Shown: piece after piece, positions 7,825 through 34,468 of the stretch
Numbering within the stretch: the stretch's first letter is position 1
How the letters are laid out: each line of letters begins with the position of its first letter
Virus record (IMG/VR): IMGVR_UViG_3300033388_001850
Span: 1 to 38,683 of that record
Direction: 5' to 3' (one strand)
DNA length: 38,683 bases
Source of the DNA: a virus
Notes under the pieces: model-generated
What the model was told of the DNA's origin: nothing
The model's input: the letters and a program-made list of their open reading frames with translations, nothing else
The model's database searches: none
Made by a program: the position numbers and the translations under genes

Positions 7825-8166
7825 ATGACTATTAAAGAGGTAATTGAAATTATGAATATTATAAGCGGAATTATAATCGCTGTAGCTGGTCCACTACTTT
7901 TAGCTGGTGTTATTTTTATTATACGGTTGATTAAAAAGAATGTTACAAAAGATAAAGATGCACATCAAAAGCTTACAAATGCACTTGTAGCTATACAAAA
8001 GAACTACTTCATACAAATATACTATACTTCTAAAAAAGAGGGCGGTATACGTCTTTATGAGCGCGATATGCTTGAAGAAATGCACAAGAGTTATAAGGAA
8101 CTCGGTGGCAATAGTTACATTGATAAAATTATGGAAGAAATAAAATATATGAAAACTTTAGACTAA
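7825..8166 (+). CDS. Holin-like membrane protein
   Basis: A 113-residue protein with one strong membrane segment (about residues 12-34) followed by a charged Lys-rich stretch and a helical, possibly coiled-coil tail. It lies directly upstream of the endolysin gene, the normal place for a holin. ATG at 7825 follows AGAAAGAAGG. It does not match a holin family I can name with certainty; a second holin candidate lies after the lysin (9777-10136), so the two may work as holin and modulator. Confidence 0.55.
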   Translation: MTIKEVIEIMNIISGIIIAVAGPLLLAGVIFIIRLIKKNVTKDKDAHQKLTNALVAIQKNYFIQIYYTSKKEGGIRLYERDMLEEMHKSYKELGGNSYIDKIMEEIKYMKTLD

Positions 8167-8187
8167 TATTTTTAGTCTTTTTTTATT
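8158..8187 (+). terminator. Intrinsic terminator
   Basis: AGACTA and TAGTCT pair around an AT-rich loop and are followed by a run of seven T. It overlaps the stop codon of the holin-like gene and would separate it from the lysin gene. Confidence 0.7.
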
Positions 8188-8198: not shown

Positions 8199-8219
8199 CA
8201 TGTTAAAGGTGGTGTTTAT

Positions 8220-8942
8220 ATGTTGGAATTTAAAGATGGAATACTAGTTAGTTGTCCTTTGCCTTTTGTCATTGCATTGATACCAAAAGATAATAACACT
8301 AGTAGATCACAACTCGGTTTAATATCAGATTCAATTACGATACATAACTTCGGTGATGATAACAAACCAACAGCCGAACAAGTTGCAGATTGGATTGATA
8401 AGGCTTATGACAGATATTCAAGTTGGCATTTTACTATTGGGTTGTACAAAGGGAAATTAACAATTATTCAAAAGTTGCCGATTGATGAGGTCGCATGGGC
8501 CGCTGGTGACGGTAAAAATGGTCCGGGTAATAGAACTTCACTTCATATTGAATGTGAAGAAACAAAAGAAGCCGAAGAGTTTATGATCAAGTTTCTACAG
8601 TTGTTATCAAAGTATTTAAATATTACAAAAATAGTACCGCATAAACATTGGACGGATAAATATTGTCCTAGAATGATACTACCAAATTGGAAAGAATTTA
8701 TTAGAAAGGTGAATGGTGAAATTATGTTAACTAGTAAAGAGAAACAAACGATTTTGAAAAAAACAGGAGATTACAAAGGTCCTATTGATGGTGATTTTGG
8801 TCCTAACAGTAAAAAAGCTCGTGATGCTTTTGCAGATAGAGAACTCGAAAAGCTGCATAACCTAGAGAATGTACCACAAGATATTGTTGCAGAGTTTAAC
8901 ATTTTAAAAAATAGAGTTGCAGCACTTGAAAAAAAGCATTAG
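8220..8942 (+). CDS. Endolysin: N-acetylmuramoyl-L-alanine amidase
   Basis: A 240-residue Amidase_2 (T7 lysozyme/PGRP fold) that cleaves the bond between muramic acid and the stem peptide. Zinc ligands are probably H42 (SITIHNFG), H141 and C149 (IVPHKHWTDKYCP). Residues about 170-205 look like a short peptidoglycan-binding repeat (GPIDGDFGPNS), followed by a coiled-coil-like linker (206-240). The gene ends at codons AAA AAG CAT TAG. The heptamer A AAA AAG at 8930-8936 would allow a -1 shift into the frame of the next domain, making a fusion of about 447 residues; the short 240-residue form would be the unshifted product. No signal peptide, so export probably depends on a holin. Confidence 0.92.
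   Translation: MLEFKDGILVSCPLPFVIALIPKDNNTSRSQLGLISDSITIHNFGDDNKPTAEQVADWIDKAYDRYSSWHFTIGLYKGKLTIIQKLPIDEVAWAAGDGKNGPGNRTSLHIECEETKEAEEFMIKFLQLLSKYLNITKIVPHKHWTDKYCPRMILPNWKEFIRKVNGEIMLTSKEKQTILKKTGDYKGPIDGDFGPNSKKARDAFADRELEKLHNLENVPQDIVAEFNILKNRVAALEKKH
8930..8936 (+). promoter_or_regulatory. Candidate -1 ribosomal frameshift site A AAA AAG
   Basis: In the amidase frame the bases read A AAA AAG, the same heptamer used by E. coli dnaX. A -1 slip allows full re-pairing of both tRNAs and continues GCA TTA GAG CCA ATT GAA in the frame of the downstream domain with no stop. The 0-frame stop TAG is two codons later. A short palindrome (TGAATATTCA) follows about 14 bases downstream; no strong stimulatory stem was found. 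A length error in the run of seven A is the main alternative. Confidence 0.6.
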
Positions 8943-9562
8943 AGCCAATTGAATATTCATATAATGGTATAGATGTTGTTGAATTGCCGCTTGGCGTGTT
9001 AAAAGCTAAACTTGATCCAGGTAATGGTTATCAGATAGCTAAAACATTAGATAAATTTATCAATGCTACTTTTGTATGGTGGGTCGATAGTAAAAAAACA
9101 AAACCTTATCCTCTAACACCTTTAGTTTCTGAAGGTGAGTTGTTATCTGATAATGTGTATATTAATGATGATGGCGATCCTATGCCGTTGTTTATAATAT
9201 ATACAGATGGAACATGTGGAATTGAAATTACAAGAAACTTATCGTCCAGAAAAGATATTCGATTGGCCGTTGGTGGGATTGCTTTATTCCCTAAGATTGA
9301 TTTCTCAGGGTTTAAGAAGTCTAATATTAATAGTTTGACTTATCCAACTAAAAGAATTGCAATTGCTTATAATGAACATACAAATAAAGTTTGTTTAATT
9401 GCGTGTGACGAGAACATAGATATTTATGATTTCCTCGCTAGATTGATACCTTTTGGTTTCTCTTTAATACTCGGTTTAGATTCTGGCGGATCTGCACAAT
9501 GGGTGTTTAATGAGAGCAAACGATTAACAGGTAGATATATGATAGGCTGGTTGTATTGGTAA
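8936..9562 (+). CDS. Phosphodiester glycosidase-like (NAGPA) domain, probable C-terminal part of endolysin
   Basis: A reading frame of 208 codons from the slip site to TAA. It resembles the phosphodiester glycosidase (NAGPA, DUF2233) family: an INATF motif in the place of the family's ING(G)F, a TKRIAIAYNE strand, and the GLDSGGSAQ motif matching the family's LDGGGS near the C-terminus. Such enzymes cleave sugar-phosphodiester bonds, so here the target may be teichoic-acid or capsule-like wall polymers. The only start codon is a TTG at 8984 that has no ribosome site and would cut off about 16 residues that look like part of the domain. Translation by -1 frameshift from the amidase is therefore the best explanation. 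Confidence 0.75.
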   Translation, partial: ALEPIEYSYNGIDVVELPLGVLKAKLDPGNGYQIAKTLDKFINATFVWWVDSKKTKPYPLTPLVSEGELLSDNVYINDDGDPMPLFIIYTDGTCGIEITRNLSSRKDIRLAVGGIALFPKIDFSGFKKSNINSLTYPTKRIAIAYNEHTNKVCLIACDENIDIYDFLARLIPFGFSLILGLDSGGSAQWVFNESKRLTGRYMIGWLYW

Positions 9563-9573
9563 AAAACAGATTG

Positions 9574-9615
9574 GCACTTAACAGGAATTTAAATGACCTA
9601 TTAAGTGCTTTTTTT
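9574..9615 (+). terminator. Strong intrinsic terminator after lysin
   Basis: GCACTTAA pairs perfectly with TTAAGTGC, an inner AGG/CCT extends the stem after one mismatch, and seven T follow. It ends the lysin transcript. Confidence 0.9.
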
Positions 9616-9776: not shown

Positions 9777-10136
9777 ATGAACATATTAAACTTTTTACTA
9801 GGCTTGATTTTTACGTATTGGGCCGACATTGTAGTTATTTTATTATTCGCAACGTTCTTGTGCTTTGCTTGGTTCAAGTTAGATAAGAAGAAATGGGTTA
9901 AAAACGTTCTCTTCACTCTAGTTGTAAAAGCTGAAAAAGATTTCGGTGCTGGAACTGGTTTAATAAAATATAAAATAGTTGTTGATGAATTTTACAATCT
10001 TATGCCTAAGATCATGAAACTGTTTATAACTCGTAAGATGATTGATTATTATATTGAAAAGGCGGTTGAAGAACTCAAAGAGCATTTAATAACAGGAACA
10101 ACGCTCGAAGGGGATTATTTAAAATCATATGAATAA
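9777..10136 (+). CDS. Holin candidate (LLH-like)
   Basis: A 119-residue protein with an N-terminal hydrophobic region (about residues 3-33) and a cytoplasmic tail containing VVKAEKDFGAGTGLIKYK, a pattern found in phage holins of the LLH / superfamily 6 type in Bacillota. The start at 9777 follows AGGAGGTGTC; in-frame codons further upstream lie inside the terminator. It has its own promoter and terminator, an isolated unit at the end of the lysis region. A role as the main holin is likely but rests on family pattern recognition. Confidence 0.65.
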   Translation: MNILNFLLGLIFTYWADIVVILLFATFLCFAWFKLDKKKWVKNVLFTLVVKAEKDFGAGTGLIKYKIVVDEFYNLMPKIMKLFITRKMIDYYIEKAVEELKEHLITGTTLEGDYLKSYE

Positions 10137-32639: not shown

Positions 32640-33380
32640 GTGCTTACACCAAGTTATATTGATAGAATGTCTGACGATATGGTTGAATTGTATTCCGAAT
32701 ATGAATTAACTGTATTAGAAGATATATCAAGACGAATATCTAAAATGAATTATTTAACACCAACAGCAGAGTTTCAACTTGAACAATTAAGACAATCTGG
32801 ATTAGTTAGAAGAAATGCTATTGTTGAAATTTCAAAACTTACAGGTAAATCAGAAGAAGAAATTATAATTGTATTTGAAAGTGCTGGTATTCAGACGCTT
32901 AAAGTTGACGATGCAATATATAAAGCTAACGGTTTGAATCCTATTCCTTTGAAAGATTCACCAGCTATGATCAATTTATTAAATGTAGATGCTTTAAGAA
33001 CTAATGCTGAACTAATAAATTTAACAGGAACAACGGCGATATCAAGTCAAAGATTATTTATAAAAGCCACTTCATTAGCACATTTACAGGTTCAGAGCGG
33101 TGCTATCACTTCTGATGTTGCCATTAACAACGCTGTTAAATTAGCTTCTAAGGATGGTTTACTTGTTACTTATCCTAGTGGAACTAAAAGATCTGTTGAA
33201 GCTGCTGTAAGAAGTAATGTACTCACAGGGGTTAATCAATCCGCTTTAGCAATACAAGATATGCGAGCTGTAGAAATGAATTCTGATTTAGTTGAAACAA
33301 CGGCTCATGCCGGTGCTAGAGAAGGTGAAGGTTTTAAAGGTCATGTTAATTGGCAAGGAAAGGTATTTAGAAGGAACTAA
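32640..33380 (+). CDS. Minor capsid protein, N-terminal part (split gene)
   Basis: A 246-residue fragment of the phage_min_cap2 / A118 gp4-type minor capsid protein that sits near the portal. It starts with GTG after GGGGTGAT and ends at WQGKVF followed by four extra residues (RRN then stop). In relatives this point continues through KYPDF and NCRHSFYPF. The continuation is found at 34084-34468, after an inserted HNH endonuclease gene. The two parts together have about the usual length (about 370 residues). Confidence 0.85.
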   Translation: MLTPSYIDRMSDDMVELYSEYELTVLEDISRRISKMNYLTPTAEFQLEQLRQSGLVRRNAIVEISKLTGKSEEEIIIVFESAGIQTLKVDDAIYKANGLNPIPLKDSPAMINLLNVDALRTNAELINLTGTTAISSQRLFIKATSLAHLQVQSGAITSDVAINNAVKLASKDGLLVTYPSGTKRSVEAAVRSNVLTGVNQSALAIQDMRAVEMNSDLVETTAHAGAREGEGFKGHVNWQGKVFRRN

Positions 33381-33388
33381 GAAAAGCT

Positions 33389-33416
33389 TTGATTTATTCC
33401 TAATATATGTTATATT
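33389..33416 (+). promoter_or_regulatory. Promoter of homing endonuclease gene
   Basis: TTGATT (33389-33394), 16 bp, TATATT (33411-33416) with TGT extension. It lies entirely within the insertion, giving the endonuclease its own transcription. Confidence 0.55.
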
Positions 33417-33432
33417 TAATTTAGGAGGTTTT

Positions 33433-34077
33433 ATGAAAGCTAAAAATTTGTTGGGTAAAGTATTTGGAAGGTTAACCGTAATTGAAAGAATTGAAAATAA
33501 GAATAGTAGAACACAATGGAAGTGTCGTTGTGAATGTGGAAATGTACATAATGTTATAAGTAAAAGTTTGGTTAATGGCAGCACTAAAAGTTGTGGTTGT
33601 TTGCGTAGAGAAATTGTAATGGAATGTAATACTACTCACGGGTTATCTAAAACAAGATTGCATAAAACATGGCGTGGAATAATACAAAGATGTAATAACA
33701 AAAAAAATACACGATTCAAATATTATGGTGGTCGTGGTATAATCATTTGTGATGAATGGTTAAACAATTTCAAATCTTTTTACGATTGGTCTATAAAAAA
33801 TGGTTATTCTGACGATCTAACAATAGATAGAATTAATAACGATGGTAATTATGAACCGGGTAATTGTAGATGGATAACAATGTTGGAGCAATGTCATAAT
33901 AGAGGGTTACACCCCAAAAATAAAAGTGGTTGTTCTGGTGTTACCTTTGCAAAAGATAGAAACAAGTGGAGAGCATCCATAACTATTAATTATAAAAAAA
34001 TAAACTTAGGATCATTTAAAAATATTGATGATGCTATAATTGCAAGAAAACAAGCGGAACGAAAATATTGGAGGTGA
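33433..34077 (+). CDS. HNH/AP2-type homing endonuclease
   Basis: A 214-residue protein. The N-terminal part has a Cys-rich zinc site (C31, C33, C35, C54, C56; CRCECG and SCGC), the middle an HNH-like core TIDRINNDGNYEPGNCRWIT (130-149), and the C-terminal ~45 residues an AP2 DNA-binding domain (SGVTFAKDRNKWRASI and NLGSF). This arrangement is typical of phage homing endonucleases. ATG at 33433 follows TAGGAGG; an in-frame codon further upstream lies inside the capsid fragment and is not used. It should cut capsid genes that lack the insertion. Confidence 0.88.
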   Translation: MKAKNLLGKVFGRLTVIERIENKNSRTQWKCRCECGNVHNVISKSLVNGSTKSCGCLRREIVMECNTTHGLSKTRLHKTWRGIIQRCNNKKNTRFKYYGGRGIIICDEWLNNFKSFYDWSIKNGYSDDLTIDRINNDGNYEPGNCRWITMLEQCHNRGLHPKNKSGCSGVTFAKDRNKWRASITINYKKINLGSFKNIDDAIIARKQAERKYWR

Positions 34078-34083
34078 TTTAAG

Positions 34084-34468
34084 TTGGCAAAATACCCAGA
34101 TTTTATATCAAGCACTGGTTACGGAACTGTAACAGGTCTCGGAGGAGCTAACTGTTGACTGCAGACATTCTTATTTCCCATACTTTGAAGGTTCAGAAAA
34201 AACTTATCCTAAAGAATTATTAAAATCTTATAAAAAAGATGATGTAACGTATAACGGTAAAAGTATGTCGTATTATGAAGCTACTCAGAAACAAAGGTAC
34301 TTTGAAAGAAATATCAGACATTACAAAACTGAATCTAAAATGATGTCTGCAGCTGGTCAAGATCCTACTTTTGCAAACTCAAAGGTTAGACAATGGCAGA
34401 AAAAGAATCGTGAATTGGTAGACCAAACAGGTGTCAAGCGCCAATATACACGCGAAAAGATTGCATAA
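34084..34468 (+). CDS. Minor capsid protein, C-terminal part, with TGA interruption needing a 7-base skip
   Basis: The TTG start at 34084 follows GGAGGTGAT. It encodes AKYPDFISSTGYG then GGANC and meets TGA at 34156. The downstream frame carries RHSYFPYFEG, then VTYNGKSMSYYEATQKQR to TAA at 34468, which matches the C-terminal part of minor capsid proteins of this family, where NCRH is a continuous motif. Exactly 7 extra bases (TGACTGC) interrupt it. Skipping from TGT (34153) to TGC (34160) restores the motif; a simple +1 shift would add Asp-Cys. Alternatively the fragment is inactive or the 7 bases are an error. A separate start at 34265 is only part of this frame. Confidence 0.7.
34141..34165 (+). 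promoter_or_regulatory. Candidate translational bypass (hop) site
   Basis: Take-off codon TGT (34153-34155) is followed directly by TGA C, then by a matching Cys codon TGC (34160-34162), and translation could resume at AGA. Both Cys codons are normally read by one tRNA. A Shine-Dalgarno-like GGAGGA lies 6 bases upstream of the take-off codon. The layout is a short version of the T4 gene 60 bypass, where a stop follows the take-off codon and the landing codon matches it. Confidence 0.4.

Follow-up and report, generated by a model that had tools for sequence, protein, structure and literature searches.

Within this viral genome, a lysin reading frame closes only a few bases after a second long coding region opens in another frame, and the question is whether the two make one protein or two. 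The window, that is, the stretch of DNA analyzed here, covers the virus record from end to end (38,683 bases) and has a G+C content of 32%. Its lysin ORF (8220-8942) matches Pfam Amidase_2 (E 1.6e-10) and a PHROG amidase/endolysin family (E 7.6e-20), and the Amidase_2 domain is followed by a peptidoglycan-binding-like segment and a coiled-coil-like linker, the linker being described by eye. With this domain, matches to PHROG lysis families and an adjoining holin-like gene, the product has the features of an Amidase_2 phage endolysin.

At the end of the amidase frame, the sequence of 8926-8942 reads TT GAA AAA AAG CAT TAG. A preliminary description of this DNA had pointed to A_AAA_AAG as a slippery heptamer; it is present in the sequence, and the 0-frame codons (GAA at 8928, AAA at 8931 and AAG at 8934) place it in the correct X_XXY_YYZ phase, with the 0-frame stop close behind. 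The -1 frame is free of stops from 8930 to 9559 and ends at 9560-9562, and the two frames share just ten bases (8930-8939), within which the heptamer falls. After the slip, 208 codons follow, and 239 + 208 residues make a predicted fusion of 447 amino acids (aa), so the open frame and the protein length given in the preliminary description were both right. Among 10,984 codons in the 48 ORFs that reach 100 aa or more, A_AAA_AAG occurs in frame twice, and one of these occurrences is the lysin slip site. The features of the locus and the lysin relatives are collected in Table 1.

Table 1. Positions of features in the window, and loci of related lysins
Feature	Position or locus	Strand	Basis or remark
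Terminator-like hairpin plus T7, 5' boundary of lysin unit	8160..8184	+	fold z -4.2; 0/200 shuffles as good
Shine-Dalgarno sequence AAAGGTGGTG, amidase	8205..8214	+	sequence; duplex energy -11.4 kcal/mol
0-frame lysin ORF, 240 aa	8220..8942	+	Amidase_2 domain at residues 37-151
TGA shutting the -1 frame directly 5' of the slip site	8927..8929	+	sequence
Slippery heptamer A_AAA_AAG	8930..8936	+	0-frame phase; inside A7 run 8929-8935
-1-frame NAGPA-type (PF09992-like) coding region, 208 aa	8936..9562	+	homology over residues 1-208, profile, fold
0-frame stop TAG	8940..8942	+	sequence; one codon past the heptamer
Possible weak downstream stem, GCCAA/UUGGC base	8944..8995	+	-11.5 kcal/mol, z about 0; 7 nt past the heptamer
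TTG, earliest possible start in the NAGPA frame	8984..8986	+	residue 17; no Shine-Dalgarno; use would cost most of the first beta-hairpin
GLDSGGSA, counterpart of the conserved NAGPA motif LDGGGS	9473..9496	+	sequence, alignment
Terminator-like hairpin plus T7, 3' boundary of lysin unit	9573..9615	+	-13.0 kcal/mol, z -3.6
Small membrane protein, holin candidate	9777..10136	+	Pfam Phage_holin_6_1 E 0.003, under curated cut-off; phrog_15303 E 3.9e-18
In-frame Amidase_2-NAGPA	L027/L095, L043/L094		L095 by Pfam, others by eye
In-frame Amidase_3-type-NAGPA, various linkers	L026, L029, L032, L033, L034/L035, L045, L050		L034 by Pfam, others by eye
In-frame Amidase_3-PGB-NAGPA	L030		domains by eye
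In-frame Amidase_3-NAGPA-PGB	L036		domains by eye
In-frame Amidase_3-SLH-NAGPA	L098		domains by eye
UGA sites (coordinates on the lysin strand)	L046 1489-1500; L048 1453-1464; L047 1384-1392		

We then asked what the -1 frame encodes. The 208-aa segment alone matched no Pfam, PHROG or NCBIfam family and nothing in phage records. A tblastn search of plasmid records returned a Monoglobus protein with 25.5% identity over residues 1-208 (E 3e-6), whose matching part is a Pfam NAGPA domain, and homologues aligning end to end with the segment match Pfam NAGPA above its cut-off. Similarly, a profile of the relatives matched a solved NAGPA structure (6pku, E 5.3e-5). A structure model of the domain, built from 14 sequences and of moderate confidence (pLDDT 62, pTM 0.66), matched guinea pig NAGPA in Foldseek (E 1.8e-6) and in VIA-align (Z 14.0, rmsd 3.4 over 176 residues, model residues 1-194), pointing to a NAGPA fold. 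The NAGPA motifs are conserved as INATF (N43, F46) and LDSGGSA (D182, G184, G185, S186), where S replaces one G; the likeness of GLDSGGS (about 9473-9493) to NAGPA, noted earlier from the letters, is thus backed by profile and fold. Judged by the profile match and the modeled fold, the downstream segment is a complete NAGPA-type (phosphodiester glycosidase) domain. A weak phmmer match of the segment to 6-phosphogluconate dehydrogenase was dropped as chance, and a domain model built without an alignment (pLDDT 36) was useless.

No ATG, GTG or TTG lies ahead of the domain in the NAGPA frame of the window, and the near starts have no Shine-Dalgarno (SD) sequence, with SD energies of -2.9 kcal/mol for TTG 8984 and -1.5 kcal/mol for GTG 8996 versus -11.4 kcal/mol for the amidase start. 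Since residue 1 is already covered by the sequence and fold matches, the first beta-hairpin lies upstream of or across TTG 8984; in the model it is formed by E5-9/E12-18, and a start at this codon would cut through it, in agreement with the earlier reading of this TTG. The -1 frame therefore encodes a protein that is homologous from its first residue and lacks a start of its own, and the selection on it was measured in relatives (dN/dS from relatives only).

The surroundings also make the amidase and NAGPA halves look like one gene, because terminator-like hairpins flank the pair on both sides and none was found at the amidase stop. A simple consensus terminator scan lists neither boundary hairpin, since that at 8160-8184 has only two G-C pairs and that at 9573-9615 has a long loop; the one weak candidate of the scan inside the NAGPA part is about the same number as in shuffles. 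Small membrane-type ORFs at 7825-8166 (phrog_4105) and 9777-10136 (phrog_15303) flank the lysin, both in PHROGs without an assigned function, and their proteins are likely to be holin or lysis partners. Some gut phages have a stand-alone PG-binding-NAGPA protein beside a separate lysin-like gene (L003 236-940, L004 3959-4705); in L003, its gene comes after a homologue of ORF 7825-8166, the ORF that precedes the lysin in the window.

Single-sequence searches of IMG/VR, INPHARED phages and GTDB genomes found no close relatives of the window lysin, and no close relatives of its neighbor genes were found. The A7-G site itself is therefore known from one case, and the recurrence in relatives that the preliminary description had looked to was seen for the -1 offset, in five lysins, and not for the heptamer. 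More distantly, phages and prophages of Clostridia encode in-frame amidase-NAGPA lysins, which were found in viral contigs and in Clostridia genomes (Table 1). Five prophage lysins (L037, L040, L042, L086 and L087) carry NAGPA in the -1 frame and are cut at the boundary between the N-terminal part and NAGPA; the N-terminal part has Amidase_2 in four of them (with SLH by Pfam in L086) and Peptidase_M15-PG_binding_1 in L037. The junction in all five is AAA AAA AAY TAR, with exactly nine A's, and no significant downstream structure was found there. Because runs of nine or more A's occur at about 0.1 per kb in the split-lysin loci, A9 at five of five junctions is far from chance, even when the relatedness of four of the five lysins in their N-terminal part is taken into account. 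In three further prophage lysins (L046, L048 and L047), NAGPA lies in the same frame as the amidase, with a single in-frame UGA between them; ACC UGA AGA GCA is common to L046 and L048 although their third codon positions are only 39-46% identical. These UGA codons are candidates for programmed readthrough in Clostridia phages. The split lysins come from one order of 249 genomes; nothing new came from two small orders that were also searched, and a class-level search run twice drew almost identical genome sets.

In all eight split relatives, the first ATG, GTG or TTG in the NAGPA frame lies 66 to 547 nt past the stop, within the domain. The independently started glycosidase that would have spoken against a fusion was thus not seen in them, as all eight lack a usable start where NAGPA begins. 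Below the break, NG86 dN/dS was 0.18/0.88 for L040/L042 and 0.20/1.97 for L086/L087, ratios that are rough because the synonymous distances are near saturation; by these comparisons, NAGPA is under purifying selection in the relatives. Taken together, the five A9 lysins with their -1 shift, the three with UGA at the same domain boundary and many in-frame fusions support the core of the preliminary description, an amidase-NAGPA lysin made through a -1 shift. The interruption of distant relatives at this very boundary between domains makes it very probable that a single gene gives these phages both a short and a long enzyme. Other loci of the same host order (L044 1215-2043 on the minus strand, L088 and L089) hold NAGPA fragments with extra frame breaks or truncation; in contrast to the lysins split at the boundary, they seem to be genuinely decaying. 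Four loci (L072, L074, L082 and L099) were set aside because their NAGPA genes lack an amidase partner.

On this comparative evidence, we consider it likely that the window has one lysin gene, in which recoding by a -1 ribosomal slip would append NAGPA to a fraction of the molecules, giving 240 aa alone and 447 aa fused. A ribosomal shift is favored for the window because the canonical ribosomal heptamer stands in phase. Its main rival is programmed slippage of RNA polymerase, which would stutter on the A run so that some mRNAs gain one A and ordinary translation gives the fusion. The five -1 relatives, with exactly A9 and no significant downstream structure, fit polymerase slippage as well as or better than a ribosomal slip. 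In IS1447 of a Clostridium, A9 slips at about 16% in each direction and seven A's, the length of the window run, are enough (PMC6211511). In the window, however, a G breaks the run into the classic ribosomal heptamer in exact phase, and further A7 runs in the lysin gene (at 8757 and 9092) lie away from any frame transition, so for this locus we regard polymerase slippage as rather unlikely. Whichever of the two slips, products of 240 aa and about 447 aa are predicted.

The split could also be accidental, through a sequencing or assembly error or a recent A-run indel in an in-frame fusion gene. Homopolymers are prone to indels, in-frame relatives exist, and the minor-capsid gene of the window is also broken in frame; yet in eight other loci the split falls at this boundary too and bears a fixed signature, A9 or UGA, and the remaining genes of the window are intact, tightly packed phage genes. 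The recurrent boundary splits, the lack of a usable start and the purifying selection on NAGPA in relatives make error or decay improbable. Had the run been misread, eight A's would indeed give a single open frame, as the preliminary description held, and so would five, but six, which it also named, would not join the frames. Separate translation of NAGPA, whether ribosomes reinitiate or use a non-canonical start close to the end of the amidase frame, seems very improbable: the amidase stop is close to the NAGPA frame, which contains ATT 8948 and ATA 8969, but there is neither an SD nor a standard start before the domain, TTG 8984 would cut the conserved first hairpin, and the first standard starts of the eight split relatives fall inside the domain. 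In-frame readthrough of the window TAG was ruled out, because more 0-frame stops follow soon after and the 0 frame has no NAGPA coding.

With a ribosomal slip, most ribosomes would stop at TAG 8940 and make the 240-aa amidase, whereas a fraction, with two Lys tRNAs on A_AAA_AAG, would slip back one base and continue in the -1 frame. These would make the 447-aa protein with its C-terminal NAGPA-type domain, and the predicted junction peptide is ...ALEKKALEPIEYSYN... The probable target of the NAGPA-type domain, for binding or cleavage, is a glycopolymer of the wall, and the phage would make short and long lysin in a fixed proportion: the short form would cut the peptidoglycan amide bond, and the long form could bind a wall polymer attached through phosphodiesters or take it off. 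From the features described above we infer the decoding event, the rate at which it happens, its agent (the ribosome and not RNA polymerase) and what the long form does.

Pseudoknot-free folding found no significant downstream structure after the slip site (z about 0), and no SD-like stimulator was found 5' of the heptamer, the best upstream anti-SD pairing being -2.7 kcal/mol. With stimulators present, A_AA.A_AA.G ranks among the most efficient -1 motifs of E. coli, and heptamers without stimulators reach at most about 10x a 0.055% background there (PMC4066793). At such low unstimulated rates little of the long form may be made, unless the host is more prone to slippage than E. coli.

The second frame break of the window lies in a MuF-like minor capsid gene, which is interrupted (32640-34468). 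Its N-part (32640-33380) ends ..GHVNWQGKVF and is followed by an HNH-type gene (33433-34077); the continuation, KYPDFISSTGYGTVTGLGGANC, has an SD and a TTG of its own and runs from 34084. The frame breaks again at about 34154, with an apparent 7-nt extra TTGACTG before CRHSYFPYFEG. Rfam had no match in the window, and hence no intron match at this gene.

In the short lysin form the catalytic N-terminus would be retained, and in the long form a wall-polymer-type domain would be added to it. That the decoding trick varies from phage to phage while the boundary stays the same suggests that selection acts on the ratio of the isoforms, not on the fusion itself. We lean towards the view that recurrent, selected recoding in phage lysins (at A_AAA_AAG, A9 or UGA) adds NAGPA to a share of the molecules and that the short/long ratio matters for lysis. 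The split lysins give a clear test of the role of NAGPA in phage lysis. Because gene callers cut such lysins in two, the NAGPA domain is missed, and no NAGPA-lysin match was found in PHROGs.

The heptamer A_AAA_AAG and the direction of the shift are identical to those of E. coli dnaX, in which the shifted product is the shorter one and an SD and a stem-loop stimulator are present; in the window, the shifted product would be the longer one and no counterpart of these stimulators was found. In-frame amidase-NAGPA lysins (L027/L095, L034, L043/L094 and L098), several of them in phage lysis cassettes, have the same two modules in the same order but, unlike the window lysin, hold them in a single open frame, making recoding unnecessary. 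The five -1 relatives share with the window lysin a 0-frame stop right past an A run, a -1-frame NAGPA and no usable boundary start, and differ in having A9 and then Y-TAR instead of A7-G and in the kind of their second N-terminal module, SLH or PG_binding_1.

Recoded lysins and NAGPA lysins each have precedents, and the joining of an amidase to NAGPA in a lysin is not in itself new. The preliminary description knew of no amidase-NAGPA lysin made in this way; the fusions as such do exist in frame, but the open-licence papers searched yielded no recurrent recoding point at which a -1 slip or UGA adds NAGPA to a lysin. CHAP-NAGPA-SH3_3 endolysins tabulated in a human gut phageome survey have NAGPA inside an endolysin, as here, with CHAP in place of the amidase and no mention of recoding in the searched text (PMC13284279). 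A Lactococcus phage lysin (1994), named as a known frameshift case in the PRFect paper, is a precedent for a recoded lysin (PMC10885494). Two isoforms from one lysin gene, as proposed here, are also made by the phi2638A and CTP1L endolysins, whose short isoform comes from an internal start (PMC12203907, PMC4777826); that short form keeps the C-terminus, whereas the short form of the window lysin would keep the N-terminus. The two phi2638A isoforms together lyse better than either alone (PMC12203907), which makes a selected short/long ratio plausible for the window lysin.
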